In this document: positions 1-17,275 of the stretch, piece by piece
Layout: every line of letters begins with the position of its first letter
How positions within the stretch are numbered: position 1 is the first letter of the stretch
DNA from: a virus
Direction: 5' to 3' (one strand)
Length of the DNA stretch: 40,991 bases
Virus record (IMG/VR): IMGVR_UViG_3300025400_000036
Coordinates: 1-40,991 of that record
Made by a program: the position numbers and the translations under genes
The notes under the pieces: generated by a model
Seen by the model: the letters and a program-made list of their open reading frames with translations, nothing else
What the model was told of the DNA's origin: nothing
Databases searched by the model: none

Positions 1-1
1 C

Positions 2-988: not shown

Positions 989-1001
989 GGATGATTTCCG
1001 C

Positions 1002-1060: not shown

Positions 1061-1067
1061 TTGAGTG

Positions 1068-1076: not shown

Positions 1077-1083
1077 AATCACC

Positions 1084-1365: not shown

Positions 1366-1375
1366 TGAAATACCG

Positions 1376-1403
1376 TTGACGCTACGGCGCAATGATGTAT
1401 GCT
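1376..1403 (+). promoter_or_regulatory. Sigma70-type promoter for the 1410 gene
   Basis: TTGACG at 1376-1381, a 16-bp spacer and TATGCT at 1398-1403. The -10 ends 6 nt before the ATG at 1410, which would give a leaderless transcript. A TAGTGAAAT motif (1363-1371) lies immediately upstream of the -35. Confidence 0.5.
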
Positions 1404-1409
1404 TTGCGT

Positions 1410-1670
1410 ATGACACTACGGCAAGCGCAACAACTCGTTGTAAAGACCTCGTATTGTAGAGGTTTCACCTTTATTGATTCGCTTGATAAAGACGACTTGG
1501 CAGTATTCAATGAGTGGATAAAGGACAAGAAACCCGCTGGTTTTATCGCCCGTGTGGTGAAAGCGGACGGGCGTTTCCTACACGAAAAGACCATGAAGCG
1601 TCACCTTGACGGACAGTGCCACTGCCCTGATAAGACCAAGTTCAAGGGTGTCTATAATGTCTCTGCGTGA
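1410..1670 (+). CDS. Small protein of unknown function
   Basis: An 86-residue protein beginning MTLRQAQQLVV. I chose the ATG at 1410 because a promoter -10 ends 6 nt before it; in-frame ATGs at 1392 and 1395 would lie inside that promoter. It is rich in basic and aromatic residues, with a SLDKDDLAVFNEWIKDKKPAGFIARV stretch (split here at residues about 30-55) and a C-terminal HLDGQCHCPDK segment. The single CHC plus a nearby His might bind metal, but this is not a recognised zinc motif. The gene overlaps the phosphoesterase gene by 14 bp, so the two are probably translationally coupled. The family is unknown to me. Confidence 0.6.
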   Translation: MTLRQAQQLVVKTSYCRGFTFIDSLDKDDLAVFNEWIKDKKPAGFIARVVKADGRFLHEKTMKRHLDGQCHCPDKTKFKGVYNVSA

Positions 1671-2883: not shown

Positions 2884-2890
2884 GAGCGTC

Positions 2891-3328
2891 ATGGCAGATA
2901 CAACTTTCACCACAAATAACGGTATTCGTATTCACGCCTACCACCCAGACAACGTAAATATCAACATTGACGACGCAAAGAACCAGTCGTTTGGTGGAAA
3001 AGTTGTTCGTGCTGGCTCTCTAGAGCAAGAGTTCCCCGAAGGTGGCGACCCACGTTTCCGTGCGGTTCTTGCTGAAATGTTGCGTATCCACATTTCCAAA
3101 TCAAGCGACTACGGCACGGGCGATGACGTGTATGCGAACTACCGTGCTGCTGAAATCATTGGCGTTCCGGCGTGGAAGTCGTGCTTTGTTCGTGCTTTGG
3201 AAAAGGTGCAACGTCTGAACAATGCCTTTGGTGGAAAGAAACTCAACCACGAAAACATTGACGACAGCCTGCTTGACCTCGCTAACCAAATCGTTATCAC
3301 GAAGGTTCTGTACGGCTCTAAGGGCTAG
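2891..3328 (+). CDS. DUF1599 / Nmad1-like all-helical protein
   Basis: A 145-residue protein from the ATG at 2891, with TAGGAG 5 nt upstream. The C-terminal part (from about residue 70) has KSSDYGTGDDVYANYRAAE, then a WKSCFVRALEKVQRLNNAF helix, then ENIDDSLLDLANQIVI. The order K..DYG, N, R..K..R and D-x-x-x-D-x-A-N matches my memory of the DUF1599 (nucleotide modification associated domain 1) family found in phages. Comparative genomics links that family to DNA base modification; its biochemistry is not settled. It follows the phosphoesterase by 7 bp, so the two are probably one operon. It could also be read as a remote MazG-like NTP pyrophosphohydrolase. Its stop lies in a TAGTGAAAT motif. 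Confidence 0.6.
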   Translation: MADTTFTTNNGIRIHAYHPDNVNINIDDAKNQSFGGKVVRAGSLEQEFPEGGDPRFRAVLAEMLRIHISKSSDYGTGDDVYANYRAAEIIGVPAWKSCFVRALEKVQRLNNAFGGKKLNHENIDDSLLDLANQIVITKVLYGSKG

Positions 3329-3361
3329 TGAAATAACGAAGTTGTAGCCTAAACTAAGGGC

Positions 3362-6300: not shown

Positions 6301-8017
6301 CACAGGCACGGGTATCACCAACGGGTACTGGTCGCCAACGGAAAGCCAATCCGTAACCACACGTTCCAGCGGTTCGGCAACGGCGCAACTTGGAGAACTC
6401 ACGCTCTTTTCACCATCAGCGACCGCCAACCTGACCTTGACTATGCCAGCGAACCCCGTTGCTGGCTCTCAATACAGCGTTATCAACAACAACGCCACCT
6501 ACTCCGTGAAACTGTCTGGCGCACTTTCACTACAGGGTGTCACAACCACCTTGTATTCTGTTGACCCCGGTGAGGCTTATGGGTTCGTGTATGACGGAAC
6601 GAACTACTGGTACAACACTTGGACTACTGACATCACCAACCTTGTCGGTATCCTGCCTACAACAAACGGTGGAACGGGTCTAAACGGCTTTACGGCGGCT
6701 AACAACGCCCTGTATTCCACCTCTGCCTCTGTCTTGACCGCAGGCACTCTGCCTATCGTCGCTGGTGGAACGGGTGCTACAAGCGCATCTGGGGTGCTTA
6801 CAAACATTGGTGCTTCACCAGCCACAGGCTCGTCGTCTATCTCAACCGTCGGAACCATCACCTCTGGTGTCTGGCAAGGAACGGCGATTTCCAATACATA
6901 CATCGCCAACCCCTCTGTGACCGTCGGCTCTACCACGATTTCACTAGGCTCAACGGCGACCGCCATTACGGGTCTTACCCTGTCGGGCACGGCGAACACG
7001 TTTAGTGGAATCCCTGCGAGTGCGCTCTCTGCGTCGGCAGTCACTATTGGCACGACAACCATTGGACTGGGCGCAACTTCCACCACAGTCAACGGGTTGA
7101 CGATTGCTGGTGCGACGGCGACCAACCCTGCCGGTAGTTACCCCGGATTTATTGTGTTCTCTAGCGGCCCAACGGGATTTACCCAAATTACAGGGACTAC
7201 GGCGACGGGAAATAACTACCTTACGTTGCCTAACATTTCGGGTAGCGACACACTTGTAGCGGTTTCAGTCGCACAAACCCTTACCAACAAGACCCTTACC
7301 TCGCCAACTGCCACAAACGCCGTGATAAACACCACAGCGACAGGCACGGTTCCTTTGACTATCAACGGAATTGCCTCGCAAACTGCCGACTATTTGGACA
7401 TCAAGAACTCGGCTGGCACAATCCTTTTCAGCATCAGTTCGGCTGGTTTGGTATCGGCAACGAACTACATTCAGGGCGCACAGGGAATCACCGTAAATAC
7501 GTCATCTACGGGTAGTTCGTCGGATGCCGTCACCCTTACAGACCGTTCCTCAACAGCAACACCAAAGTCGGTAAGCCTGCGAGCCAAATCTGCCAGTAGC
7601 GGTGGCGGTTTGGAAGCCATCAACGACGCTTTCAGCCAGTCAATTATGAGCCTCACAAACACGGGGGCGTTTTCTAGTTTTGGTGGAACAGTATTCTGGT
7701 CTATCAACTCGGTCACGGCATCCGCCTATACAACGGTTCTTAGCGACGGTGGCGCACTGATTACCCTTAGTGCCGCCTCTGCCACAACCGTCACTATTCC
7801 ACCAGCCTCATCAGTTGCCTATCCCGTAGGAACGCAGTTGAACATTGTCGGAACGGCAGCATCAGCAAATACCGTCACTATTCAGGGTGGCAGTGGCGTT
7901 ACTATCCAATCTACGGGTGCTACGTCGTCAGCCCCTAAACTACGAACGCAGTATTCATCAGCATCAGTTATCCAATACGCAACTAACACTTGGCTCGTGG
8001 TGGGAGACATTGCCTAA
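3362..8017 (+). CDS. Giant Ser/Thr/Gly-rich fibre protein with internal repeats
   Basis: A 1551-residue protein, very rich in Ser, Thr, Gly, Ala and Asn and almost without Cys or Trp, typical of a beta-structured phage fibre. Within it are: four copies of an SVTIGTTSISLGTTAT-type unit (residues about 675, 785, 1185 and 1225); three copies of a RGAVSQTGDYFDVKNSAGTI-type unit (near residues 160, 825 and 1340); two copies of VGTVTSGTWNATPIS; a GGTG segment near 1105; and several Ig-like HGLWIGATVTVAGI modules between about 420 and 560. The C-terminus, ending in NTWLVVGDIA, resembles fibre ends. The ATG at 3362 lies 6 nt after TAAACT, so initiation may be leaderless. Placement between capsid and neck genes would fit a head or neck fibre as well as a tail fibre; I cannot decide. 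Confidence 0.75.
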   Translation: MAYPLPTAAISVSGEAVPTYLTGSLASSYSTGQTFTLSTTTTWLEVGTNGQITANPLGTSGLFVVVVDFGLSTEEHILCSSLNTSTGVVTVWTDGTYNGRGWDGTTISAHSAGSSSNLNCFPIVGGTYFAGLSSVISTLSTTYAPLLSPSVTASAASAVGLTVRGAVSQTGDYFDVKNSAGTILYSINSAGAVNFNGFTINTNVLTGLSSVSATGNQTIIQPGTNLATVTNVATASPSAGSLTFTANNNFVVGQIVTTSGIAPSQFNISLLTVTAVSSTGFSVASNATGTYVSGGTATAWANDYALTVKKATGGISFQAGNTSNIINVNDTINSSGSMTLVGAGFGGSLAVQGYGQAYPTINSQLRGNSGLFSDSYVSTLYSNANYRLFRVDGWGRLASLGDNRPATVIPVAPSNITSVSGNGTTITVNTNNHSFSAGQYVVISGITTTTAYNGTYQITAVSTGQIFTVSGTATGTATFGTASVAVSAVSAGNPATNYVTYTTSTNHGLWIGATVTVAGITGATAYNNSNAVVLSIPSPTTFVLYNTATGGSPVFTSATVSYNTALATPSNSAGNTTNPSDTFQVVDIYQNPRFGISNTSTALNSPVWAVNAYSGKIINVANGSATGDAVNYGQLSTFAGATSIATVGTVTSGTWNATPISNTYLANSSVTIGTTSISLGTTATSISSLVAPSAALFAPNISVPNFYVNPGGYPSAITWYTYGTTNAQYLIPVASATGTLTLPNGTDTLAGISLSQTLTNKTISGSSNTLSNIAPSSLTASAVTVGSTSIGLGATATTVAGLTLTSPTANNAIISTTASGSIPLVIRGVVAQTADLEEWQNSASTVLAKIDAGGNLVAQSITPSGIGTATASTRYVGGTNNGYPTVGTFTVGDFIVDHSATIWVCSSSSVTYALTAAVSGSSTITYTTSATSVPKVGDYITVTGFSPTAFNVTGLAVISSNFGAKQFSVGASASGLTATGTGTGITNGYWSPTESQSVTTRSSGSATAQLGELTLFSPSATANLTLTMPANPVAGSQYSVINNNATYSVKLSGALSLQGVTTTLYSVDPGEAYGFVYDGTNYWYNTWTTDITNLVGILPTTNGGTGLNGFTAANNALYSTSASVLTAGTLPIVAGGTGATSASGVLTNIGASPATGSSSISTVGTITSGVWQGTAISNTYIANPSVTVGSTTISLGSTATAITGLTLSGTANTFSGIPASALSASAVTIGTTTIGLGATSTTVNGLTIAGATATNPAGSYPGFIVFSSGPTGFTQITGTTATGNNYLTLPNISGSDTLVAVSVAQTLTNKTLTSPTATNAVINTTATGTVPLTINGIASQTADYLDIKNSAGTILFSISSAGLVSATNYIQGAQGITVNTSSTGSSSDAVTLTDRSSTATPKSVSLRAKSASSGGGLEAINDAFSQSIMSLTNTGAFSSFGGTVFWSINSVTASAYTTVLSDGGALITLSAASATTVTIPPASSVAYPVGTQLNIVGTAASANTVTIQGGSGVTIQSTGATSSAPKLRTQYSSASVIQYATNTWLVVGDIA

Positions 8018-8844
8018 TGCCTATTCAGGGGATTATCGCCTCTAGCCACTCTCACGGCACTCCGTTTTCACTAGATTTCCTTGTCGCAGGTGGCGGTGGT
8101 GGAGCAGGTGGCGGTACGTCACGTCGTGGTGGTGGTGGCGGTGCTGGCGACCTACGTTCGTCGGTGACCCTTTCCACCGCAGGAGGCAGTTCCACGCCAA
8201 CCCTTGATTCAGCACTAACGGGCATTGGCGTTGGCTCTACGCTCACTATTAGCGTCGGTTCCGCTGGCACATACGGCAACTCAAGCGGCGGTAGTACAAA
8301 TGGTGGAAACTCGGTATTGACTTTTGGGGCAACGACCATCACCTCTCTCGGCGGTGGTTACGGTGGTTACGGCACAACATCCCAGACCGCAGGCAACAAG
8401 GGTGGTTCGGGTGGTGGTGGCGGCGGAAACTCCTCATCTGGCGGTGCTGCCTCTGGTGTGAACACCTTTGCCGGTGGTGCCGCCAACGTGGCAGGAACCT
8501 CTGTAAATGGCGGTGGAGGTGGTGGCGCAGGCGGCGCAGGTGCTACGTCTCTAGCAAGCGGTTCAGGTGGTTTCGGTCTAAGTAGTTCCATTACCGGAAC
8601 TGCCACAACTTATTGCGTTGGTGGCGTTGGAACAGGAACAGCACAATCGGGGCGAACCTACGGATGGGGTGGCGACAGTGAGGTTTCCAATGCAAACAAC
8701 GGCGTGGTGATTGTCCGTTGGCTAACTTCTGCCTATTCGGGAACCCCGACGTTTAGCGGTTTGACGCACGGCTCTATCAGCACAACTGGTTTGTATAGTT
8801 ATGTTGTTATTACTGCCGGAACAAGCGGAACTATGACGTTCTAG
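8017..8844 (+). CDS. Glycine-rich fibre-tip or adhesin-like protein
   Basis: A 275-residue protein whose ATG overlaps the stop of the giant fibre gene (TAATG), so the two are translationally coupled. It starts a glycine-rich domain with DFLVAGGGGGAGGG and holds at least five Gly runs separated by short hydrophobic strands. It then has a NNGVVIVRWL strand, the typical closing strand of the Gly-rich domain found in phage and bacterial adhesins. Such domains can fold as bundles of polyglycine type II helices, as in the gp38-type tip adhesins of T-even-like phages; applying that fold here is inference. The C-terminal 40 residues (from SAYSGTPTFSG) form a separate beta-rich end. Most likely it tips or decorates the fibre made by the preceding gene and contacts the host surface. 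Confidence 0.65.
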   Translation: MPIQGIIASSHSHGTPFSLDFLVAGGGGGAGGGTSRRGGGGGAGDLRSSVTLSTAGGSSTPTLDSALTGIGVGSTLTISVGSAGTYGNSSGGSTNGGNSVLTFGATTITSLGGGYGGYGTTSQTAGNKGGSGGGGGGNSSSGGAASGVNTFAGGAANVAGTSVNGGGGGGAGGAGATSLASGSGGFGLSSSITGTATTYCVGGVGTGTAQSGRTYGWGGDSEVSNANNGVVIVRWLTSAYSGTPTFSGLTHGSISTTGLYSYVVITAGTSGTMTF

Positions 8845-8856
8845 TTTCCTTCACTC

Positions 8857-8865
8857 TGGTATAGT
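8857..8865 (+). promoter_or_regulatory. Extended -10 promoter overlapping a TAGTGAAAT motif
   Basis: TGGTATAGT is a TGN-extended -10 that ends 7 nt before the ATG at 8873, which predicts a leaderless message. The last bases of the -10 are shared with TAGTGAAAT at 8862-8870, so a protein binding that motif would cover the promoter and start site. Confidence 0.5.
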
Positions 8866-8872
8866 GAAATCT

Positions 8873-9166
8873 ATGGACTACTCATCTTTGCTCTCCGACG
8901 ACCAGAAGCGTGAACTTCTTACCCAGCGCATCCAGCAGTTTGCTGCTGAGGCGTATCAGCACAGCCTGAACTTGCAGGTGGCACAGGCGAATAGCGACAC
9001 GCAAGCCGAAACCATTGCCCAGAACGCAATCAGCACGTTGGACAACGCCCTACAGGTTCACATTGACGCTCTGAACGCTCTTGCGCCAGCGGTTTCCACC
9101 ACACCGCCCATTGACCCAACTGCAAGCGCAAATCCTGAATCTGCGCCGATTACACCAGCCCAGTAA
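8873..9166 (+). CDS. Small helical protein, unknown function
   Basis: A 97-residue protein. I prefer the ATG at 8873 (7 nt after an extended -10) to the GTG at 8864, which would lie inside that promoter. Residues about 5-65 are predicted helical from composition (DDQKRELLTQRIQQFAAEAY, then an AETIAQNAISTLDNAL segment), with spaced hydrophobics that could form a coiled coil. The last 30 residues are Pro/Thr/Ala-rich and disordered-looking. There are no Cys, no membrane segment and no known motif. It sits between the glycine-rich tip gene and a structural gene, so it may be a virion component or an assembly helper for fibres. That is inference from position only. Confidence 0.6.
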   Translation: MDYSSLLSDDQKRELLTQRIQQFAAEAYQHSLNLQVAQANSDTQAETIAQNAISTLDNALQVHIDALNALAPAVSTTPPIDPTASANPESAPITPAQ

Positions 9167-9179
9167 ATTAGAAATCCTT

Positions 9180-9188
9180 TGGTAAAGT
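9180..9188 (+). promoter_or_regulatory. Extended -10 promoter for the 9224 gene
   Basis: TGGTAAAGT is a TGN-extended -10 element. The predicted start near 9195 gives a leader of about 30 nt that carries AGGAG (9212-9216) before the GTG at 9224. It has the same TGNTANAGT form as the elements at 1068 and 8857. Confidence 0.45.
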
Positions 9189-9223
9189 GTTGCCATAAGG
9201 CACACTATCCATAGGAGTTGTAA

Positions 9224-9949
9224 GTGGCACAGGTATTTCTCAACTCTGGCTTGACCGTCATGCTCAACCAGATTATTACAGCAACACCATCTACCTACTC
9301 GCAACTCTACGTTGGTCTTTACACGGGTCTGTCGGGAACGACAGTTCCGTCGGCTACCGCCACTGTAGGTAGTGGAATCACGGAAGTCACGGGTGCTGGC
9401 TATGCCCGTCAGGCTGTCACGTTTGCCACGCCCGTAACTGCTGCATCGGGTCTTTCCACCTCAACCACGACTTCAACCGGCAACACGGCTGGCAACTCAT
9501 ACATCACTACGAACGGAACCTACACGGGAACCATTACCACTTACGCTGGTCTGAAAGCCGGTATGGTGATTACGCTCGGAACGGGTGGCACATTGGAAAG
9601 CCACATCATTACGGGTCTGCCCGGTTCTAACCAAATCGTTATCAGCGGAACCCTGACGAACACGCAGAACTCTGCCAACATCAGCATTGGCGACAACTTG
9701 CCACCGACCTCTGACACCTATTACGGTGGTCAGAACTTTCTCGGAACTGGTATCAAGACGACACCAACCGCAGCATCAACGTTCGGCCCAGCACTCGGAA
9801 CTTGGACTGCCGCTAACGGCTACTTCATCATTACCGCCTCGTCTGGTGGAACTGCGCTCTACGCCGCTAACTTTGCCGACGCTTCATCGCCAGTTCTTGC
9901 TGCGAACGACACGCTTGCCTTCACGCCTACTTGGCTTATGAGCAACTAG
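9224..9949 (+). CDS. Virion structural protein, beta-rich
   Basis: A 241-residue protein starting at GTG 9224 with AGGAG well placed upstream. The N-terminus has SQLYVGLYTGLSG, then ITEVTGAGYARQAVTF. The C-terminus has FGPALGTWTAANGYFI, then SSGGTALYAANF and NDTLAFTP. This bipartite pattern (LYVGLYT..., TE..G.GYARQ..., then a strand set ending in a GD/ND-T-L-F turn) is one I know from small phage virion proteins of uncertain role. Between the two halves (residues about 85-160) lies an inserted beta module rich in Thr and Gly (AGMVITLGTGGTLESHIITG). It lies in the appendage cluster and is probably incorporated in virions. I cannot name a function. Confidence 0.55.
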   Translation: MAQVFLNSGLTVMLNQIITATPSTYSQLYVGLYTGLSGTTVPSATATVGSGITEVTGAGYARQAVTFATPVTAASGLSTSTTTSTGNTAGNSYITTNGTYTGTITTYAGLKAGMVITLGTGGTLESHIITGLPGSNQIVISGTLTNTQNSANISIGDNLPPTSDTYYGGQNFLGTGIKTTPTAASTFGPALGTWTAANGYFIITASSGGTALYAANFADASSPVLAANDTLAFTPTWLMSN

Positions 9950-9968
9950 TAGAGGCTGGTGATGGGCT

Positions 9969-11150
9969 ATGCCCACGACAGTTTCTAATGCCAACATAAC
10001 CTTTGCGTTCTATAACGGTGGTGGAAACACGCCGTTTATTGGGCTTTACAAGGGCGGTCGGACTGGCAATGCCTACGTCACCATCGGTTCGGTGGTCGGC
10101 ATCCCCGTCACCGACGGAACAAAGTCAATCCCGTATGTCCGGTTTGGCTCTACGCCAGAAATCCAAATCACCACGCTGTCAAAGACTTTGGCACACACAA
10201 ATGCTGCATCCTTCTGGGAAGTTTCCACCACATCAGGGGTTGTTTCCAATACGCACAATGTCAATGGCTCTACGTCAGAGGCAAGCGTCACCACTGGCAA
10301 CAAGTTCACGGCATACATAGAAAACTCGTCTGCTGTTCAGGGTGCGGTCGCCGTCGGCTCAAAGGTTTTCCAATACCTCTCTAACTCGTCTGTCGCCCAA
10401 GTTTTCACTACGGTGGGAACGAATACAACCGAACTGGTTGTTGCCGTCTATGGTTCGGCGGTTCAGTTATTCAGTTTCACCAGCACTAAGGTTCGTTCGG
10501 CATTAAGGGCAGGAAGCACAACTGGGGCTGAAGTGAGTGACGGGGTGAAAACCCTTACGCACACTGTTGTTGGCGACGCTACAGAGGTTTCCACCACCGA
10601 CGGGACAACCATTAGGTCGCACAACGTATCTGGCTCTACGCCCCAAAGTCAAGTCACCACAGGCACAAAGTTTTCTGCCCGTGCCAATTTTGCAGCATCT
10701 GTCGCCGTTTCTGGGGCTACGGGGGCATTTCTACGCTCACTAACTCGCAACGGGTCGTCAGTTCAGGTGGAAACGCAAGGAAACGGCAAATTACTTACCC
10801 ACAATGTCGCTGGCTCTACGACACAGGCGCAAGTTTCCACCTCGAAGCGTGTATCTACACGTTTGCGAGCATCGTCAAACGCCCTACTCAACACTTTCAC
10901 CTCACTAAAGCAGGTAGCCAGTAAGCGATACGGGTCGTCTGTAGATTTCCAAATGCAGACTGGTTTTGCGCTTGTTTCTCAACTGTTTGTTTCAGCACCC
11001 GTTATCTTTCAGGAATACCTGACTTTTGAGCAACTAAACGACGCTCCTATCACGACAAACCGAGAACAAGCAGTAGCATCATTCACAGACTCGGTGGTTA
11101 GTGAAATAATCCAAGACGCACCAGTTATTACGTTTGAGGAGCGAAACTAA
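9969..11150 (+). CDS. Repeat-containing virion-associated protein, unknown function
   Basis: A 393-residue protein, Ser/Thr/Val-rich. After a short N-terminal part (AFYNGGGNTPFIGLYKGG) the body is built of degenerate repeats: a HNVxGSTxxxxVTTGxKF unit occurs at residues about 96, 218 and 278, and a weaker HTVVGDATEVSTTDGTTI unit lies near 198. Intervening segments repeat an S-V-Q-(V/L) strand. The last 70 residues differ and hold alternating acidic/hydrophobic segments (FQEYLTFEQLNDAPI, FTDSVVSEIIQDAPVITF). No enzyme motif is visible. It fits a beta-solenoid-like or stalk protein in the virion appendage cluster, but this is inference. The stop overlaps the next start (TAATG). Confidence 0.6.
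   Translation: MPTTVSNANITFAFYNGGGNTPFIGLYKGGRTGNAYVTIGSVVGIPVTDGTKSIPYVRFGSTPEIQITTLSKTLAHTNAASFWEVSTTSGVVSNTHNVNGSTSEASVTTGNKFTAYIENSSAVQGAVAVGSKVFQYLSNSSVAQVFTTVGTNTTELVVAVYGSAVQLFSFTSTKVRSALRAGSTTGAEVSDGVKTLTHTVVGDATEVSTTDGTTIRSHNVSGSTPQSQVTTGTKFSARANFAASVAVSGATGAFLRSLTRNGSSVQVETQGNGKLLTHNVAGSTTQAQVSTSKRVSTRLRASSNALLNTFTSLKQVASKRYGSSVDFQMQTGFALVSQLFVSAPVIFQEYLTFEQLNDAPITTNREQAVASFTDSVVSEIIQDAPVITFEERN
10254..10850 (+). repeat. Degenerate coding repeats within the 9969 gene
   Basis: Three DNA copies begin near 10254, 10620 and 10800. Each starts CACAA(T/C)GT and keeps GGCTCTACG at the same offset, followed by a CAA/GCAAG-type stretch and TCACCAC or TTTCCAC. Spacing is 366 and 180 bp. Similarity at the nucleotide level as well as the protein level suggests fairly recent duplication or gene conversion. 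Confidence 0.5.
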
Positions 11151-11491
11151 TGGCAGACACACTTACTTACCCAACACCAGCAGCAAACCTGCCACAGGCC
11201 TCGTTTCTCTGGCTTGACGCAAGCGGAACGCCATTGGATTTCAGCACGGGTTGGACGTTCCAAATGAAGATTGGTCGCCCTCCAAACCCTGCGCAAGTCA
11301 TTATTTCATCAGGGATTATTGGTCTTACCAGCACCAACGGTTCGGCAAACATGGTTGTTCAGTGGGCTGACGGCGCACTCTCGACACTCACACCGGGTCG
11401 TTGGTATTTCCAAATCACCGCAACACAAACGTCAAACGGCGCACAGCGTATTTTGACTGGCTCAATCGTATTCAACTTCGCCCAAATGTAA
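11150..11491 (+). CDS. Small beta-sandwich structural protein
   Basis: A 113-residue protein whose ATG overlaps the stop of the upstream gene. It has SFLWLDASGTPLDFSTGWTF, a WADGALSTLTPGRWYFQITA strand pair and a final RILTGSIVFNF strand. The order (polar N-terminus, a W-T-F-x-M-K-I strand, then L-x-P-G-x-W-Y-x-x-x-I-T-A) resembles small Ig-like phage domains such as the N-terminal domain of baseplate upper proteins (BppU-like); the match is only by pattern. It is the last gene before the neck cluster, so it may be an attachment or decoration domain for the preceding fibre proteins. Confidence 0.55.
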   Translation: MADTLTYPTPAANLPQASFLWLDASGTPLDFSTGWTFQMKIGRPPNPAQVIISSGIIGLTSTNGSANMVVQWADGALSTLTPGRWYFQITATQTSNGAQRILTGSIVFNFAQM

Positions 11492-11501
11492 GGATAGTGA
11501 A

Positions 11502-12020
11502 ATGACTTGGACATACTCCGCAGACCCAACTTCGTCGCAAAAGGACGCTATTCGTTGGCTTGTTGGTGATACCAACCCCGATACGCCACTTGTTCAGGAC
11601 GAGGAAATCGCCTTCAACCTGATGGAAATGAACTACGAGATTTACCGTGCGGCAGCGAACACCGCACAGAACATTGCCTCTACGTTCACAGGTTTGTCTC
11701 AAAGCACCTCTAAGAGCGTCGGAGGGCTTTCTCTGTCGCAGTCCTATGGTGACCGTGCGCAACGCTACGAACGTCTGGCTAAAGACCTTCTGGCTCGTAG
11801 TCGCCGTGTGAACCCACCGATGGTGAACGCCGCTCCACAGGCTCTTGGCGCAGAATTCAAGGTTGGCGGTTCGTTTGACCCCTACTACGCCGAAACGAAC
11901 TACTGGCCTACAAACTCTACTCTTGGTGTTACCAGCACCTACGGCACGGGATACAACCCCAGTGGCGACGGTAGTGGTGGTGACGGTCAAGGCGATGCGT
12001 TCAACGGTGAGAACCCGTAA
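11502..12020 (+). CDS. Head-tail connector (adaptor) protein
   Basis: A 172-residue protein. The N-terminus, with DPTSSQKDAIRWLVGDTNP followed by PLVQDEEIAFNLMEMN and an AAANTAQNIASTFTGL helix, is the pattern of siphophage head-tail adaptors (HK97 gp6-like). These form a ring under the portal. A second helix (YGDRAQRYERLAKDLLARSR) is also typical. The last 60 residues are Gly/Asn/Ser-rich and probably flexible. The ATG at 11502 is embedded in a TAGTGAAATG sequence, so the motif overlaps the start codon. Neck genes in the usual order follow immediately, which strengthens the call. Confidence 0.8.
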   Translation: MTWTYSADPTSSQKDAIRWLVGDTNPDTPLVQDEEIAFNLMEMNYEIYRAAANTAQNIASTFTGLSQSTSKSVGGLSLSQSYGDRAQRYERLAKDLLARSRRVNPPMVNAAPQALGAEFKVGGSFDPYYAETNYWPTNSTLGVTSTYGTGYNPSGDGSGGDGQGDAFNGENP

Positions 12021-12427
12021 TGGCAGTTGACCCACTTCTGCTGGAAATGATGACCCAGACGATTCTGGTTCAGAACCCCCCAACCTACGCCGTTCCTACG
12101 CCGTCAGCACCTTTGGACATTTATGGTCGTCACGCACAACCTCTGCCCAGCGGTTCCACCAACACCAGTGAGCAAGCGTGGACAACGGCAAAGTCATACG
12201 CCTGCCGTATTGAGTTCCAAACAATGATATTCAAGGACAGCGAGGGGCGTGAGCGCAAGTCGTCTGGTCGTGCCTACCTGACGAGTTTCTTTCCCGAAAT
12301 CAGCACGGAAAGCCTTGTCTGTATCCCCAGCCAAACGCAACCTGCCCTGCGATACCCCGTAATCGCTTACATAGACAACAACTACGACGAAAACGGGCCT
12401 TATTCCACGACTATCCACTTCGCATAG
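12020..12427 (+). CDS. Head-tail stopper (head closure) protein
   Basis: A 135-residue protein with a TAATG overlap to the connector gene. It is beta-rich with a central KSYACRIEFQTMIFKDSEGR strand and a YLTSFFPEISTESLVCIPS segment, ending YDENGPYSTTIHFA. Short beta-barrel proteins with this layout between connector and tail-terminator genes are head closure proteins (SPP1 gp16-like or HK97 gp8-like), which seal the filled head. The call rests mostly on gene order and partly on sequence pattern. Confidence 0.7.
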   Translation: MAVDPLLLEMMTQTILVQNPPTYAVPTPSAPLDIYGRHAQPLPSGSTNTSEQAWTTAKSYACRIEFQTMIFKDSEGRERKSSGRAYLTSFFPEISTESLVCIPSQTQPALRYPVIAYIDNNYDENGPYSTTIHFA

Positions 12428-12440
12428 GGAATAGTGAAAA

Positions 12441-12893
12441 GTGGCTACGTTCAAGGTTTTGTTTGACGCTTCTAGCCTGCCAAGCAAGGCAAAGGTAGAA
12501 CACATATTCAAGACGGCTATGGTCAATGCCCAGAACACCGTAATGAAAAGGGTTTTTGACGAAAGCCAGCAACTTGTTCCCGTCGACACTGGTGCGTTGA
12601 AAGCGTCTGGCACATTGGAACTGGCTAATGAGTTCTTTCTAGAGGCGACGGTGGAATACGGCGCAAACATTGACCCAACCATTGACTACGCCGTTGTCGT
12701 CCATGAGGATTTGGAATTCAGCCACGCAGCGCCTACGCAAGCAAAGTATTTGGAAGTTCCCTTCACTCGCCATCAAGACGAAATCAGAGAGGAAGTGCTG
12801 AAAAACTTGCGTGAGGAATGGGCGAGGTCGGGAATTGGCGCATCGTTCAACGCCGGAACCTTCTCAGAGGATTTGAAGTCATTTGGGCTGTAG
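12441..12893 (+). CDS. HK97 gp10-like neck/tail protein
   Basis: A 150-residue protein starting at GTG 12441. It contains QQLVPVDTGALKASGT and, further on, DYAVVVHEDLEF, then an AAPTQAKYLEVPF segment and a C-terminal helix. The V-P-V-D-T-G-x-L-x-x-S signature, with Y-A-x-x-V-H and a K-Y-L-E motif, is diagnostic of the HK97-gp10-like family. These proteins act at the head-tail joint or tail top in siphophages. A TAGTGAAAA motif (12432-12440) ends directly at the start codon. No Shine-Dalgarno sequence stands out there; GGGAA at 12427-12431 might serve. Confidence 0.8.
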   Translation: MATFKVLFDASSLPSKAKVEHIFKTAMVNAQNTVMKRVFDESQQLVPVDTGALKASGTLELANEFFLEATVEYGANIDPTIDYAVVVHEDLEFSHAAPTQAKYLEVPFTRHQDEIREEVLKNLREEWARSGIGASFNAGTFSEDLKSFGL

Positions 12894-12902
12894 TATTTCA
12901 CT

Positions 12903-13355
12903 ATGGCTCTCTTAGACGACATTGCAACTTTTCTGGTGGCTAAGGTCACTGCCTCTGCCTATGGCACGTCACAGGGGCTTGTGGCAGGTGTAAATCTGTT
13001 TATCGGGCGTATGCCAGCCGAAGCACCAGATGCCGCTGTAGTCGTTCAGCAGTATGAGGGCAAGGGTTCTGACTTCACTATGGGCAACGGAATCACCGCC
13101 CTTGACTATCCACGAGCGCAAGTTACCGTGCGTGGCTTGCGAGAGGACTATCCGGGTGCGTATGCGTGGGCGAACACCATCCGTGACGTTCTAGGTGGCT
13201 GGGTGGTTCCCGACCCCGTGTATTTCCCTTACGTTGTGCGTATTCAGCCCATTGGTATCCCAAACCCGATTGGATACGACGACGTTGAGCGACCACGCTT
13301 CACCATCAATTTACAATTCACGACGAACAACAACAACGGGTTGCCGACGACATGA
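12903..13355 (+). CDS. Tail terminator (tail completion) protein
   Basis: A 150-residue protein. It opens with a helix, ALLDDIATFLVAKV, then NLFIGRMPAEAPDAAVVVQQ, YPRAQVTVRGLREDYPGAYA, an AWANTIRDVLGG helix and a final FTINLQFTTN strand. This is the layout of the phage tail-terminator family typified by the minor capsid protein family found next to gp10-like genes. Such proteins cap the tail tube at its head-proximal end. The ATG at 12903 overlaps the last base of an inverted TAGTGAAAT copy (12895-12903), and there is no clear Shine-Dalgarno sequence. Confidence 0.75.
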   Translation: MALLDDIATFLVAKVTASAYGTSQGLVAGVNLFIGRMPAEAPDAAVVVQQYEGKGSDFTMGNGITALDYPRAQVTVRGLREDYPGAYAWANTIRDVLGGWVVPDPVYFPYVVRIQPIGIPNPIGYDDVERPRFTINLQFTTNNNNGLPTT

Positions 13356-13597
13356 CCGTAGAGCGTGAGGTGATTATCAAAACCTTACGGGCGGCTCGCA
13401 AGGCTAATGAGGCGGCCGTGTTCGCTCTTGGGGCTGTGGAGAAAATGCTCTTAGAGCCAGAGGCAACGCCACTCGCAGACGATGCTGAACCGGCAGAGGA
13501 AACGCCAAAGACGTGCGACCACGCTGATGCCATACCAGTTCAGACAACCGACGGTTCGTATTTGGTATGCCACTGTGGTGAACAAATAAAGTCATAA
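13352..13597 (+). CDS. Small protein with a zinc-ribbon-like C-terminus
   Basis: An 81-residue protein whose ATG overlaps the tail-terminator stop (ATGA), so it is coupled to it. An N-terminal helix (REVIIKTLRAARKANEAAVF) is followed by a Pro/Glu-rich acidic linker. The C-terminal segment has C-D-H followed 19 residues later by C-H-C, a plausible CxH...CxC metal-binding ribbon. The family is unknown to me. Being coupled to structural genes, it may regulate expression or be a minor virion part; neither is shown. Confidence 0.6.
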   Translation: MTVEREVIIKTLRAARKANEAAVFALGAVEKMLLEPEATPLADDAEPAEETPKTCDHADAIPVQTTDGSYLVCHCGEQIKS

Positions 13598-13598
13598 C

Positions 13599-13627
13599 TT
13601 GACTTTGCTAGTGCCAGTCTGTATAAT
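13599..13627 (+). promoter_or_regulatory. Near-consensus sigma70 promoter
   Basis: TTGACT at 13599-13604, a 17-bp spacer and TATAAT at 13622-13627. This is the best match to the consensus in the window. The start near 13634 gives a leader of about 49 nt with AGGAG at 13673-13677 before the ATG at 13683. A strong host-type promoter in the middle of late structural genes suggests the two genes behind it are expressed on their own, possibly early or from a prophage. Confidence 0.8.
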
Positions 13628-13682
13628 GAGTAGGCGCAGTTATGACTGTGTTTTTTGCAATTGACACCTGATAGGAGTGATT

Positions 13683-14012
13683 ATGAATAAGCGCAAAGGC
13701 CTCATCTACCACACTGGTCGCTTCCACGCCGCTTGCAGGGCTTGTGAGCAACAACTAAGCCCACAAAACTCTTGGTTTGAGAATATGAACGTTGCACGGG
13801 CGTGGCTTGACACAGAAGAAGGCAACAAGACGTTTGCCGACCACGTTTGCGACCCAGAGTTTGCCGAAATCGTTGAAGCCAAAATGGCTCGCAATAGGGA
13901 AAACTTTGCTAGGAACAAGGCCGCCGACGAGGCTAAGCGGGCGAAACGCCGTGCTACTATCAGCGACACCCCCGCTCCACCTGCTCTCACTCGTATGCTG
14001 GGGGGGTTCTAG
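13683..14012 (+). CDS. Small basic protein behind its own promoter
   Basis: A 109-residue protein. I chose the ATG at 13683 because AGGAG lies 5 nt upstream; a GTG at 13677 overlaps that ribosome site. It has an N-terminal HAACRACEQQLS segment with a C-x-x-C pair, one further Cys at about residue 56, and a strongly charged helix (RENFARNKAADEAKRAKRR), then a Pro-rich end. The C-x-x-C pair with nearby His residues might bind zinc. There is no homologue I recognise. Its own strong promoter and lack of structural features suggest an accessory (moron-like) gene. Confidence 0.6.
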   Translation: MNKRKGLIYHTGRFHAACRACEQQLSPQNSWFENMNVARAWLDTEEGNKTFADHVCDPEFAEIVEAKMARNRENFARNKAADEAKRAKRRATISDTPAPPALTRMLGGF

Positions 14013-14014
14013 TT

Positions 14015-14278
14015 ATGGCAAATAAAAAGGAAATCACCCCTCGCTACGTTCCCACCTACGAGGTGGCGACCGAGTGGAACGAAATCAACGCTGGCGACCT
14101 TGTAAAGATTTCCGGTGAGCGTGGCGAGTTCACGTTCATCAAGGTTCACCTCCGCAACAACGAGGTCACTGACGTAATCGTTCACGGCGGAACGACAGGG
14201 AACACCACTATCCGTGCGTTCTATCCCCACCGAGTATCCGCTATCAAAAAGCGCAAAAAGCGTCAAAGCGAAGAATAA
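14015..14278 (+). CDS. Small basic beta-rich protein, unknown function
   Basis: An 87-residue protein 2 bp downstream of the preceding gene and presumably co-transcribed with it. It contains NEINAGDLVKISGERGEFTF followed by VHLRNNEVTDVIVHGG and an IRAFYPHRVSAIKKRKKR tail. The D-L-V-K-I-x-G-E-R-G-x-F-x-F strand-turn-strand looks like an SH3-like or KOW-like small barrel, and the very basic C-terminus could bind nucleic acid. This is inference from pattern. It might be an accessory protein acting on host or phage nucleic acid. Confidence 0.6.
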   Translation: MANKKEITPRYVPTYEVATEWNEINAGDLVKISGERGEFTFIKVHLRNNEVTDVIVHGGTTGNTTIRAFYPHRVSAIKKRKKRQSEE

Positions 14279-14411
14279 ACAGCACCCCTAGAGCCTCATA
14301 CAGCCTCTCTAATGGGTCTGCCTATACCTTCCCCTACCCGATTAGCAAACTAAAAATCCAATTATGGGTGGTAGTCTCTACCCCGTAGGGTCACTAGTCG
14401 CTAAGGGCGTT
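14279..14411. other. Non-coding gap with small hairpins
   Basis: About 130 bp lacks a convincing gene. It holds two small inverted repeats: GGTAG-TCT-CTACC just after 14367, then ACCC-CGTA-GGGT overlapping its end. There is no clear T-tract, so it is not an obvious terminator. An in-frame ATG at 14364 could extend the next gene by 16 residues, but coding character there is weak and it would span the hairpins. A TAGTGAAA copy is absent here. Confidence 0.4.
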
Positions 14412-14681
14412 ATGGCAAAATCAACACCGTCATACCAAGTTTCAGGCAATTCACCGTTATGGTATAACGGCAAGGTTGCCAACGTTGGTGATGTCGTCAA
14501 TGATATTCCCGGCGAAAGCATCTCGTGGTTGCTCGCAGACGGATTCATTATCCCCGTCGCACAGCCCGTCACGCCTGACGTTGCCCCAGAGCCTAGCGAC
14601 GCACCTGTCGCTGACCCCTCAACCGACCAAACACCTACGGAAAGCGCACCCGTTGAGCCAAGCGCAGAGGCTGGTAACTAA
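14412..14681 (+). CDS. Small protein with compact N-terminus and acidic Pro/Thr tail
   Basis: An 89-residue protein from the ATG at 14412 (AAGGG upstream); 14364 is an alternative start. The N-terminal half has SGNSPLWYNGKVANVGDVVN followed by ISWLLADGFIIPV. The C-terminal half is a disordered-looking acidic Pro/Ser/Thr tail. The layout, a short domain with a Y-x-G...G-D/E-I/V turn and a final x-W-L-L/L-I-x-x-G-x-I helix, recalls the product at 1084-1365. Its stop overlaps the tail-tube start, so it is coupled to tail genes. No family is recognised. Confidence 0.6.
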   Translation: MAKSTPSYQVSGNSPLWYNGKVANVGDVVNDIPGESISWLLADGFIIPVAQPVTPDVAPEPSDAPVADPSTDQTPTESAPVEPSAEAGN

Positions 14682-15886
14682 TGCCTAATTTCGTTCACGG
14701 TAAGAATGTACGAGTAGCGTTCATCAACAACTCGGCAAGCGCAACCGTTGTAAATGGTTATGGGCCTCTGGCTATTACGGCAGTAGCGACCTCATCACCT
14801 TCGGCTGGATACACCACTTATACGACCGTTGCGCCACACGGCTTGTATGTCGGTGGAACCGTCACCGTCATCAATATGTTGCCGACCGCTTACAACGCCT
14901 CTGGTGCGACCATTACTGGCGTTGCATCGCCCACCAGTTTCACCATTGCCAACTCTGCCACTGCCGCTATCACGCAGTTGGGTGGCGTTTCGGGTCTGGT
15001 TGGCTACACGGGCTACAACCCTTTTGTCGCAAACCAATATGTGACCGTTGCTGGAAACACCAACTCATCGCTCAACCTGACGGGAACCGTCGCTGGCGCA
15101 AACAACATTGGCTTTTCACTAAGCACAACCGCCACTGTCGCAACGGGAACCGCCGCTACCGGAACTGGTGGAACCGGAACCAGTGTTGCCACTGGCTACG
15201 ACCTCTCGCAGTTCTTTAACGACGCTGGGCTTAGTTTCACGGCGGAAGCCACTGAATCAACCACTTTCCAAACTGGCGGCGTAAAGTCATACATCAAGGG
15301 TCTAAAAGACGGCACAATCACCTTGTCTGGCTACTACGACGGAACGCAACAGGGCGTTGACGCAATTATGACTGAGGCGATTAACAACAACGGCGACGAC
15401 GCAGTTATTGTTTTCCCTTTCGGTGGAAACACTGACAATGAGCGTTGCTGGCTGTCGCAGGGTATTGAGACTAAGTATGAACTGAAGTCGCCTGTTGCTG
15501 GCATTGTGACCATCGATACTGAAATCCAAGCGGACGGTGGCGTTGCTTACGGAACCGGCAAGTCTTTCAGCATTACGGGAACGGGTGCTTCTGCCTCAAC
15601 TGTCGCTCTCAACAACCAGCAGGCTTCTAACAATGGTGGCTTGCTGTTGGTTGCGGTCACCGCTTTGTCCGCAGGGGCAACGTTGAGCCTATATTTCCAG
15701 TCGTCGTCAGACGGCGTAACTTGGACTAGCGGCGCAAGCAGCCAGACCCCAATTGGAAACACGATTTCGGCTGTTGGTGCTGAAATCTACCCGATTTCGG
15801 GAAGCATTTACCAATACACACGTCTTTACTGGACACTCAATAGCGGTGCTTCAGCAACTATTTTCTACGGGTTCGCCCGTTATTAG
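14681..15886 (+). CDS. Major tail (tube) protein, enlarged paralogue
   Basis: A 401-residue protein. It begins MPNFVHGKNVRVAF, and its core (residues about 180-290) has a LSQFFNDAGLSFTAEATEST, TFQTGGVKSYIKGLKDGTIT and TKYELKSPVAGIVTIDTEIQ pattern, typical of siphophage tail-tube proteins of this kind. Between the N-terminal strand and the core, residues about 28-100 form an inserted beta module (THGLYVGGTVTVINM-type, ending FTIANSATA) of the same kind as those repeated in the giant tail proteins. The last 110 residues (from SITGTGASAS) form another beta domain with LYFQSSSDGVTWTSG, which may be carbohydrate-binding or decorative. Those extra parts would project from the tube. Overlap with the previous gene (TAATG) suggests coupling. 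Confidence 0.8.
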   Translation: MPNFVHGKNVRVAFINNSASATVVNGYGPLAITAVATSSPSAGYTTYTTVAPHGLYVGGTVTVINMLPTAYNASGATITGVASPTSFTIANSATAAITQLGGVSGLVGYTGYNPFVANQYVTVAGNTNSSLNLTGTVAGANNIGFSLSTTATVATGTAATGTGGTGTSVATGYDLSQFFNDAGLSFTAEATESTTFQTGGVKSYIKGLKDGTITLSGYYDGTQQGVDAIMTEAINNNGDDAVIVFPFGGNTDNERCWLSQGIETKYELKSPVAGIVTIDTEIQADGGVAYGTGKSFSITGTGASASTVALNNQQASNNGGLLLVAVTALSAGATLSLYFQSSSDGVTWTSGASSQTPIGNTISAVGAEIYPISGSIYQYTRLYWTLNSGASATIFYGFARY

Positions 15887-15897
15887 AAAGGAATAAA

Positions 15898-16650
15898 ATG
15901 CCTACTTTCCAGCACGGTAAGAACGGTTTTCTAGCGTTGGGATTTGAGAATGTCGGCGGTTTGACTTCCGTGACGACCCTCTCGGCATCGGCAACTGGTT
16001 CACCTTCGGTTCTTTCGCTTACCCCAGCGACGGGAACGTTGTTGGCTGGTGGAAACCCAACCCTCACGGGTGGTTCGGTCTACGGCGGTTTCGTGAACGG
16101 TATCCCATTTGCTACCGCTACGAAGTTCGCTAACGGAACTACGTCATACACCGCGTCGGTGAACACCAGCGTTCAGGCGGCATCTGGCTCGCCAGTTCTG
16201 CCAATGATTAACGTTTCACCATACCTGAGCGACTTGGGCTTGCCAATCGCCATTGACCCCAATGAAACGACGACGTTCTCACAGCAGGGTGTCAAGACTT
16301 ACATTGTCGGTCTGAAGGGCTACACCCTGTCGTTTAGTGGAATGTACGACCCCACGCCTTCGACGGTGGCTTCATCTGCCTCAACGCCCGGTGGTATGGA
16401 CGCTATCTTGACCGCCATGATTGCTTGGCAGGACAACTACAACACCATCAACGGTATCTACACGCCGAACTTTATCTCGTTCGTGTATGGCCCAGCCACG
16501 CCCGGTGCTTTCACCGGACAGTCTCCTGCGCCTCAATACTACGGTCAGGGTATCCTCACCAAGTACGAACTGAAATCGTCAGTTTCGGGTGTTGTGACGT
16601 TTGACGCTGAACTCCAAATCACGGGCGCAGTCACACGCACCACGCTTTAG
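15898..16650 (+). CDS. Major tail (tube) protein, short paralogue
   Basis: A 250-residue protein with a good AAAGGA site before the ATG. It begins MPTFQHGKNGFLALGF and has the same core as the preceding product: YLSDLGLPIAIDPNETTTFS, VKTYIVGLKGYTLSFSG and LTKYELKSSVSGVVTFDAEL. It has a different N-terminal insert and lacks the C-terminal extra domain. Tail tubes made of two related proteins are known (for example lambdoid splice or frameshift products and T5-like sets), so either both assemble or one is a minor or decorative form. An 11-bp inverted repeat follows the stop. Confidence 0.8.
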   Translation: MPTFQHGKNGFLALGFENVGGLTSVTTLSASATGSPSVLSLTPATGTLLAGGNPTLTGGSVYGGFVNGIPFATATKFANGTTSYTASVNTSVQAASGSPVLPMINVSPYLSDLGLPIAIDPNETTTFSQQGVKTYIVGLKGYTLSFSGMYDPTPSTVASSASTPGGMDAILTAMIAWQDNYNTINGIYTPNFISFVYGPATPGAFTGQSPAPQYYGQGILTKYELKSSVSGVVTFDAELQITGAVTRTTL

Positions 16651-16664
16651 TTGTAGTAGTATCC

Positions 16665-16705
16665 ATCCGTCAGGGTTTTAGGCAAATCGTCTAGCCCTGA
16701 CGGAT
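16665..16705 (+). terminator. Perfect 11-bp inverted repeat after the tail-tube gene
   Basis: ATCCGTCAGGG (16665-16675) pairs perfectly with CCCTGACGGAT (16695-16705) across a 19-nt loop. The T-run TTTT lies inside the loop, not after the stem, so it is not a standard intrinsic terminator. It may act as an attenuator or mRNA-stabilising stem reducing expression of the chaperone relative to the tube protein. The chaperone ATG is 12 nt downstream. Confidence 0.5.
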
Positions 16706-16717
16706 TGGAAACTATTT

Positions 16718-17101
16718 ATGTCTAATCTTAGTGAAATCATTTTTGCCACCAGCGACATCGCTGAGGAAACCATCCACGTCAACGCTTGGGATGTAGACAT
16801 TCTTGTCAAGGCAATGACCGCCCGTGACCGTGCCAAGATGGTTGAGCAGGCTGGTGGTGAAACGGGTATGAACCTCGAACAGATTTTGCCTGACTTGGTG
16901 ATTCTGTGTTCATTTGACCCAGCGACGGGCGAGCGTATTTTCCAGCCCAGCGACCGTGACGCTCTGCTTGCTAAGGCAGCAGACCCCATTGAGCAAATCG
17001 CTATCAAGGCTATGGCTCTTAGTGGAATGTCGCAAGATTCGGTGGACGAAGCGGGAAAAGGCTCATCGCCAACCCCGACCGCCGGTTCATCTTTGAACTA
17101 G
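16718..17101 (+). CDS. Tail assembly chaperone, short (unshifted) form
   Basis: A 127-residue product with the layout of siphophage tail assembly chaperones (lambda gpG-like). An N-terminal part (NLSEIIFATSDIAEETIHVN) leads into WDVDILVKAMTARDRAKMVE, FDPATGERIFQPSDRDALL and an AADPIEQIAIKAMALSGM helix. It precedes the tape measure gene, as is standard; the chaperone coats the tape measure during tail assembly. The gene ends 17 codons after a slippery heptamer at 17053-17059. A TAGTGAAAT copy overlaps codons 4-7. No clear Shine-Dalgarno sequence is visible. Confidence 0.85.
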   Translation: MSNLSEIIFATSDIAEETIHVNAWDVDILVKAMTARDRAKMVEQAGGETGMNLEQILPDLVILCSFDPATGERIFQPSDRDALLAKAADPIEQIAIKAMALSGMSQDSVDEAGKGSSPTPTAGSSLN

Positions 17102-17256
17102 CCGACGCTTTAGGACGAACGGTTGGCGAACTCTTAGAGGGTTCGCCAGCCCATCGCCCCCTATCGTCATCGGAGTTGGTGGAATGGCAAGCGGTTTACA
17201 AACTGCGAGCATTTGAGAACGAGCAAGCCTCAAAGAATTCCAATAACGGGTTGTAG
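16718..17256 (+). CDS. Tail assembly chaperone, -1 frameshifted long form (gpGT-like)
   Basis: Reading shifts by -1 at G GGA AAA (17053-17059), after codon 114, and continues in the other frame to TAG at 17254-17256, giving about 179 residues. The added 65 residues begin RLIANPDRRFIFELADALG and include RTVGELLEG and SSELVEWQAVYKLRAFENE, which is the expected T-type domain (R-T-V-x-E-L, then S-S-x-E-L-x-E-W). That domain binds the tape measure in lambda. It has no start codon of its own, so the frameshift is the only sensible route to express it. The join is 16718-17059 followed by 17059-17256 (base 17059 read twice). Confidence 0.88.
17053..17059 (+). promoter_or_regulatory. Programmed -1 ribosomal frameshift site GGGAAAA
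   Basis: A canonical X-XXY-YYZ heptamer in the correct register (GCG GGA AAA). Slippage re-pairs the tRNAs on GGG AAA and the next codon is AGG at 17059. Lambda G/GT uses the close relative GGGAAAG. The downstream frame stays open for 65 codons and encodes the family's expected C-terminal domain. Confidence 0.9.
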
Positions 17257-17275
17257 GATTATCCACAGGTGACCA

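Follow-up and report, generated by a model that had tools for sequence, protein, structure and literature searches.

The window analysed here is the whole 40,991-base stretch of the IMG/VR virus record IMGVR_UViG_3300025400_000036, on which 33 genes were called, and the element in question is an octamer, TAGTGAAA (inverse TTTCACTA), dispersed along its length. The octamer occurs 44 times, 22 times on each strand, i.e., at 10.7 copies per 10 kb. Seven copies lie at gene junctions, where a sequence-only reading of the window had described them as overlapping a stop codon, a start codon or a -10 box and had likened them to the stoperators of Cluster A mycobacteriophages, at which bound repressor blocks elongation. 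All seven copies exist, and five of them do overlap a stop or a start. On the plus strand, the TAG of the copies at 1363-1370 and 3326-3333 is the stop codon of the genes at 1084-1365 and 2828-3328, respectively; the copy at 8862-8869 contains the called GTG start at 8864, which is followed by an in-frame ATG at 8873; and the copy at 11495-11502 stands between AAGGA and an ATG, its last base being the A of the ATG at 11502 (the A and T, as had been claimed, if the 9-mer TAGTGAAAT is meant). The inverted, minus-strand copy at 12896-12903, which reads TTTCACTA on the plus strand, also ends on the A of an ATG, at 12903, and the start at 12895 given earlier fits the 9-mer ATTTCACTA. The overlap does not extend to the plus-strand copy at 1015-1022, which is merely intergenic between the genes at 17-988 and 1084-1365, nor to that at 12432-12439 (plus), which ends one base before the GTG start at 12441.

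The other 37 copies lie within genes, 16 in the sense and 21 in the antisense orientation. The gene at 1606-2883 carries a plus-strand copy at 2165-2172, the gene at 3362-8017 minus-strand copies at 4164-4171, 5391-5398, 6525-6532 and 6939-6946, the gene at 7990-8844 a minus-strand copy at 8066-8073, and the gene at 9969-11150 copies at 10403-10410 (minus) and 11099-11106 (plus). Single copies follow in the genes at 14681-15886 (15114-15121, minus) and 16718-17101 (16729-16736, plus). In the gene at 17276-21442, copies are found at 17883-17890, 18319-18326 and 18687-18694 on the minus strand and at 19198-19205 and 19693-19700 on the plus strand; in the gene at 21484-29466, at 21972-21979, 25223-25230, 26982-26989 and 28356-28363 on the plus strand and at 22907-22914, 24863-24870, 27324-27331 and 29168-29175 on the minus strand; and in the gene at 29450-34555, at 30481-30488, 31338-31345, 33526-33533 and 33955-33962 on the plus strand and at 31917-31924, 32137-32144 and 33168-33175 on the minus strand. 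The gene at 34558-36147 has copies at 34722-34729 (minus) and 35825-35832 (plus), the gene at 36147-37217 two minus-strand copies at 36560-36567 and 37139-37146, and an initiator-like gene at 40266-40991 copies at 40420-40427 (plus), 40780-40787 (plus) and 40900-40907 (minus). This distribution over both strands and mostly within genes agrees with the earlier statement that the octamer is not a ribosome binding site.

The octamer is constrained as a DNA word and not via protein coding. Against the 44 copies seen, 1.28 are expected under an order-2 Markov model and 1.25 in codon-preserving shuffles (200 replicates, in which every protein and codon pool was kept and the non-coding bases were shuffled too), and TAGTGAAA ranks first among the over-represented 8-mers of the window, with a Z of 34, where the top word of a shuffled replicate scores about 5. 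Of the copies, 34 fall in genes that the window contains in full, and these are spread over four codon phases, with both strands represented (13, 10, 7 and 4). The word is also sharply bounded. Every AGTGAAA in the window is preceded by T (44 of 44), and among the 24 one-base neighbours of TAGTGAAA only TGGTGAAA (25 copies) and TAGTGGAA (11) are in clear excess. Pooled over eight records, of which the window and one relative, G001, share 7.5 kb, TAGTGAAA is found 372 times against 16.1 expected, whereas 20 one-base neighbours (leaving aside TGGTGAAA, TACTGAAA, TAGTGGAA and CAGTGAAA) total 169 against 251.5 expected and are thus depleted. In the flanks, position 9 alone is biased (T in 24 and A in 15 of the 44 copies).

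The copies are spaced more evenly than chance allows. Record G001 extends the window leftward, with 99.9% identity over 7,505 bases, and the two joined span 63.5 kb with 66 copies of TAGTGAAA. Counts per 5 kb along this sequence have a variance-to-mean ratio of 0.21 (p = 0.003), far below random, and the coefficient of variation of the spacing is 0.70 (p = 0.002), lower than for any other of the 21 8-mers found 22 times or more. When five TAGTGAAA genomes, which are not fully independent, are combined by Fisher's method, p is 9e-5 for counts and 8e-4 for spacing. The density also holds in previously unseen sequence: a further 7,675 bases that adjoin the window on its right (contig L165) contain nine copies, with 8.2 predicted and 0.23 expected by chance. 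It seems that the octamer is required roughly once per kilobase.

Comparison with relatives shows that the word is conserved and that it comes in several forms. Relatives were examined at 80 of 175 loci with a related capsid protein, and all of their records are fragments or possibly incomplete. Of 54 loci of at least 8 kb, 15 carry TAGTGAAA at no fewer than five copies per 10 kb, several of these being contigs of the same population, and among the larger records it is counted 51 times in G003, 100 in G010, 47 in G017 and 48 in G008. Other relatives are instead rich in CAGTGAAA (32 copies in G018, 39 in G019, 42 in G021 and 60 in G007) or in TGCTGAAA (76 in G014 and 69 in G016, where TAGTGAAA is nearly absent), and by its counts one larger record, G004, is enriched in none of these words. 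The window and G003 are 75% identical over about 19 kb, and 12 of 17 aligned copies of TAGTGAAA are kept exactly, compared with 16.3% of all 8-mers (p = 8e-7), which is the top rank among the 272 8-mers that have five or more aligned copies. The kept copies begin at 1015, 2165, 3326, 6939, 11099, 11495 (also kept in G010), 12896, 16729 (also in G018), 29168, 34722 (also in G008 and G018), 35825 and 36560, and five of them, at 6939, 12896, 29168, 34722 and 36560, are antisense. The copy at 1363 is not kept, those at 15114, 33955 and 40420 are lost in G003, and the copy at 40780 is TGGTGAAA in G017.

Pairwise comparisons (both directions counted, relatives not independent, pairs above 97% identity dropped) show that these related freshwater phages use dialects, TAGTGAAA (T), CAGTGAAA (C) and TGCTGAAA (X), each of which is kept only within its own dialect. 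Pairs of TAGTGAAA phages keep 164 of 323 aligned copies against a base rate of 15.5%, the C dialect keeps 152 of 194 copies of CAGTGAAA internally (base 54%) and the X dialect 100 of 156 copies of TGCTGAAA (base 22.5%). Between T and C phages, by contrast, only 15 of 157 copies of TAGTGAAA are kept, with a base of 12.5%, and the replacements include TGGTGAAA (15) and CAGTGAAA (12). The switch can take place between close relatives: G017 carries TAGTGAAA and its sisters G018, G019 and G021 carry CAGTGAAA, though most genes of these phages are closest to each other. In G017, only a methyltransferase, one GHxFxGNQ protein and one 619-amino-acid protein are closer to those of TAGTGAAA phages than to those of the sisters, and this comparison yielded no protein that would read the word. 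Sister phages with different words and nearly the same genes leave narrow sets of candidates, which makes the search for such a reader tractable.

The copies at gene borders, to which attention had originally been drawn, form a minor part (7 of 44) of this genome-wide pattern. With all called genes counted, seven copies lie outside or touch genes where the proportion of such positions predicts 1.63 (binomial p = 0.0011). The observation at the junctions is confirmed, and the phenomenon is larger than first noted. Six of the seven run along transcription, as do 16 of the 37 intragenic copies; this difference reaches only p = 0.09 (Fisher) in the window alone, and the strand bias is clearer in G003, where copies along and against transcription number 16:2 outside and 15:18 inside genes (p = 0.003, with rough gene calls). 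Part of both the excess and the orientation arises because sense copies in phase 0 contain TAG TGA and are hence possible only at gene ends, as at 1363 and 3326. The remaining border copies keep no fixed distance to the start codon, and only four of the 44 copies lie within ten bases of a called start.

Strand polarity is marked in some of the relatives. In G020 (L146-L150, 95 kb), all 21 copies of TAGTGAAA are on one strand, which is the coding strand, and of a wider set of octamers 183 of 206 copies share one strand. Intragenic sense copies exceed the opportunity offered by codons in G020 (13:0, p = 4e-8), G010 (46:28, p = 1e-7) and G003 (15:18 where 24% is expected, p = 0.008); no such excess is seen in the window, G017 or G008. 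Almost every gene of these phages is read in one direction, which confounds the direction of transcription with that of the genome. In the TGCTGAAA records G014 and G016, however, sense and antisense copies number 91:22 in genes of the majority strand and 2:9 in genes of the minority strand (Fisher p = 5e-5), and TGCTGAAA therefore follows genome direction there and not gene strand.

WhiB genes, present in 8 of the 16 records, indicate an actinobacterial host for this freshwater virus, and so do the nearest isolates, Arthrobacter phages whose capsid protein is 46-50% identical. At the DNA level, a megablast search of positions 1-20000 of the window against a phage collection gave no match, and a scan of genome contigs returned two loci without indicating a host for the phage. 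The octamer shows no enrichment in 197 genomes of Actinomycetes, where its density is at most about 0.6 copies per 10 kb (10.7 in the window), nor does the 9-mer TAGTGAAAT in 149 genomes of the phylum Actinomycetota; the true host may be missing from these samples.

The reading that we rank first, and hold tentatively at somewhat less than an even chance, is that selection maintains TAGTGAAA as a polar site that acts in cis and is recognised by a DNA-processing protein. Chi, an octamer read by RecBCD, and KOPS are asymmetric octamers that are dispersed and polar, and by analogy TAGTGAAA may follow the logic of such cis-acting tags. We infer that a protein binds the octamer, that it is of phage origin and that it acts on DNA, not on transcription. 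In such a scheme, a sequence-specific protein would read TAGTGAAA on double-stranded DNA during replication, recombination, end-processing or packaging, and this reader would probably be encoded by the phage, given the lack of enrichment in the sampled hosts. Like Chi, KOPS or HIP sites, the octamer would act in cis over about 1 kb, so that every stretch would need a copy, and copies would be placed wherever coding sequence permits, stop and start codons included; related phages may have changed the word, to CAGTGAAA or TGCTGAAA, together with its reader. If TAGTGAAA does mark DNA for the nuclease, recombination or packaging machinery, it would be the equivalent, carried by a phage, of Chi, KOPS or HIP sites. 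A more speculative version, to which we give little credence, is that the octamers are a barcode that lets a lytic actinophage distinguish its own DNA from that of its host and of rival phages: a phage protein would read the word about once per kilobase and spare, replicate or package only tagged DNA, and the dialects would be mutually unreadable.

Several other explanations have to be weighed against a DNA-processing site, and the one ranked next, which we consider unlikely, is the stoperator-like roadblock, in which elongating transcription would be halted by a repressor or silencer of the phage bound to the octamer. It would account for the excess of border copies with six of seven (16 of 18 in G003) along transcription, for the 21 of 21 copies on the coding strand of G020 and for the intragenic sense excess in G020, G010 and G003, and the dialects resemble the variants described for Cluster A stoperators (PMC6550527). 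The same counts applied to phage Peaches as a positive control do recover its stoperators (GATGTCAA, 17 copies against 1.4 expected), of which 10 of 17 lie outside or touch genes and whose strand switches where transcription turns. In the window, the sites are not mostly at borders (7 of 44) and keep no single orientation to transcription, although in G020 they do; 37 of the 44 copies are intragenic, antisense copies are conserved, and the polarity in G014 and G016 follows genome direction. Domain searches in which control profiles matched found no tyrosine integrase (PF00589), serine integrase/resolvase (PF00239) or HTH_3 repressor domain in any of 16 records of 30-121 kb, possibly incomplete, and phmmer found no match to the Peaches and Bxb1 repressors (gp71/gp69 family), with E up to 10, among 8,462 open reading frames of 20 records; these absences are not proof, since the records are fragments. 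The stoperator interpretation of the sequence-only reading is thus partly supported, by the border excess and its orientation, yet weakened overall, and TAGTGAAA is not classed here as a stoperator system.

It is somewhat less probable again that the word has a HIP-like origin, either through a link with mismatch repair and orphan methylation of DNA or as a product of biased repair with no selected function, a model that has been given for cyanobacterial HIP1. The density of about one per kilobase, the dialects and the depleted one-base neighbours recall HIP1 (PMC4390886), and N6/N4 methyltransferase genes are present, with five in G003 and three in G001. Four enriched records (G008, G018, G019 and G021), however, have no match to PF01555, PF00145 or PF02086, so that orphan methyltransferases do not consistently accompany the word, the methyltransferase tree as a whole is not sorted by dialect, and even spacing and a border excess are unexpected from pure mutation bias. 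We think it improbable that the octamer is the Chi of the host RecBCD, AddAB or AdnAB, stocked by the phage to survive. The octamer is asymmetric, dispersed and, in some records, polar, and phages that have no RecBCD inhibitor have been described as rich in Chi (PMC3784561); yet none of the 197 Actinomycetes and none of the 149 Actinomycetota genomes is enriched, with the proviso on sampling given above, the phage's own Gam-like end protector should make Chi superfluous, and there are several octamers per phage. Very improbable, finally, is an artefact of coding or assembly, in which the word would have been multiplied by repetitive protein modules or DNA elements, or by codon bias. Large repetitive tail proteins are indeed present, and one other motif, CCYTGNNNACC, proved to be a coding repeat, but the shuffled expectation of 1.25 refutes this explanation for TAGTGAAA; the flanks of the 44 copies are unrelated save for T or A at position 9 (39 of 44), four codon phases on both strands are used, and independent contigs carry the word.

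A number of observations weigh against the proposal of a polar DNA-processing site. The window itself shows no strand polarity (22:22, with nearly all genes on the plus strand), and the polar aspect of the proposal comes from other records (G020, G010, G014 and G016). The test of genome direction draws on 11 minority-strand copies in two TGCTGAAA records; pooled over 13 records, minority- and majority-strand genes give 14:16 and 538:290, a weak difference (p = 0.05), and the minority-strand genes of G010 go the opposite way (5:2). The sense-strand copies of G020 and the excess in G010 are also what a transcription roadblock would predict. Evenness is not significant in G003 and G017 taken singly, and it is slight or missing in the tested records of the C and X dialects (missing in G007 and G016, and seen only in G018 by counts, p = 0.045). 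Other octamers of the window, such as TGGTGGAA (44 copies) and TGCTGGAA (27), are enriched too, though clustered and nearly confined to genes, and the proposal does not account for them. Searches for candidate readers yielded no protein that binds TAGTGAAA, and the best conserved of the small helix-turn-helix proteins has the recognition helix TTDQALYKHHNR, or one almost identical to it, whatever the dialect and even where no enrichment is seen. This protein (87 amino acids, encoded beside an SNF2 helicase at about 1067-1363 of L165, minus strand) was ruled out as the determinant of the dialect. Methyltransferases were likewise dropped as readers on the grounds given above, the four enriched records that match none of the three families and a tree not sorted by dialect; one supported clade of three (G003, G017 and G020) is entirely TAGTGAAA-bearing, which may be chance.

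The genes near the right end of the window provide context for a role in DNA handling. A Mu Gam-like DNA-end protection protein is encoded at 38091-38666 on the minus strand (PF07352, E = 7.7e-17; phrog_2205, E = 1.2e-36), the strand opposite to that of almost all other genes of the window. It is followed on the plus strand by an AAA/RecA-like protein at 39201-40109, whose best match is of unknown function (phrog_1366, 2.7e-82) with a weak Sak4-like one (phrog_124, 7.5e-08) and whose orthologue in G003 matches PF13479, and by the initiator-like gene at 40266-40991, an HTH_36 replication-initiation-like protein (PF13730, 2e-06; phrog_270, 1.1e-31) that runs off the end of the window. A Cas4/RecB-like PD-(D/E)XK nuclease is present in 19 of 20 records, i.e., in all but the window, and in the relatives it is weakly akin to the Cas4 of Peaches. 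Because of these neighbouring DNA-end genes (Gam-like, Cas4-like and RecA-like), action in DNA handling is favoured, by inference. Arrays of orphan DNA methyltransferases occur in G003 (L082:314-2597, and L084:16272-20000 with L085) and in G001 (L100:12909-17634, three in tandem).

Among known systems, TAGTGAAA belongs in kind with the dispersed repeats of lytic actinophages, themselves unexplained, as a variant that is denser and asymmetric. The 17-bp repeats of Cluster O (Corndog) are a published example: more than 30 dispersed copies per genome, about a third of them intragenic and with no clear orientation, in phages that have no integrase and form no stable lysogens, and with a function described as unknown (PMC4351075). 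The two share dispersed repeats in actinobacterial phages without integrase. The Cluster O element, however, is a 17-bp inverted repeat, two-thirds intergenic, whereas TAGTGAAA is an asymmetric 8-bp word with 7 of 44 copies at borders and no second arm in its flanks, and the dialects and even spacing of TAGTGAAA are not reported in the sections of that account at hand (PMC4351075). For a type of repeat that has no explained function, TAGTGAAA thus offers a case that is much denser, exactly defined, asymmetric, even, conserved and dialect-switching. The stoperators of Cluster A (L5, Bxb1 and Peaches) resemble it as asymmetric, dispersed sites in many copies (44 here), with variants among relatives and copies at borders; they differ in being 13 bp long, in following transcription, in lying mostly at borders and in having a cognate repressor and an integrase, neither of which was found here. 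HIP1 (GCGATCGC) is a highly iterated octamer of cyanobacteria, present about once per kilobase inside and outside genes and replaced by alternative words in some strains (PMC4390886), much as TAGTGAAA is present 44 times in 41 kb with 37 copies in genes; it is, however, palindromic, resides in bacterial chromosomes and goes with two orphan methyltransferases (PMC4390886), whereas TAGTGAAA is asymmetric, resides in a phage and also occurs in records that lack the methyltransferase families tested. Chi is enriched in the genome of its host, with an observed-to-expected ratio of 2.3 in E. coli (PMC3784561); that of TAGTGAAA is about 34 in the phage, with no enrichment in the sampled hosts. SPBRE of SPbeta is likewise a dispersed phage repeat read by a regulator, MrpR, but is located in promoter regions (PMC10516654). 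The Start-Associated Sequences of Cluster K are dispersed and adjoin start codons, at 3-7 bp before starts and in one orientation (PMC3203893), whereas a called start is found within ten bases of no more than 4 of the 44 copies of TAGTGAAA. The available parts of an account of freshwater actinophages (PMC6802176) do not mention the octamer, and an open-access literature search returned nothing resembling it, which does not show that it is unpublished.

The window holds further enriched octamers, namely TGGTGGAA (44 copies), GGTGGAAA (37), TGCTGGAA (27), TGGTGAAA (25) and TGCTGAAA (20). A single degenerate site uniting TAGTGAAA with TGGTGGAA, TGCTGGAA, TGGTGAAA and TGCTGAAA was considered and dropped, as TGGTGGAA and TGCTGGAA are clustered, not even, and only 1 of the 116 copies of these four words lies outside genes; 11 of 20 copies of TGGTGGAA are conserved between the window and G003. 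Motif finding by expectation-maximisation drifted to codon-phase patterns and gave no usable motif. The motif CCYTGNNNACC, seen in G018 and G020, reflects a collagen-like Gly-X-Y coding repeat and is not a DNA motif; the repeats that mimic it lie at about 59000-60000 of L148 (G020) and in L109-L110 (G018). Palindromes are strongly avoided in the window relative to codon shuffles (GGTACC 0 against 48, ACCGGT 0 against 46, GTTAAC 0 against 38 and GCCGGC 0 against 34), which suggests heavy restriction pressure. Three very large genes, at 3362-8017 (1551 amino acids), 21484-29466 (2660 amino acids) and 29450-34555 (1701 amino acids), belong to one siphovirus tail region. The protein motif GHxFxGNQ(Y/W) recurs in 59 otherwise different proteins from 16 of 20 records, often several per genome, an example being L082:7595-8020.

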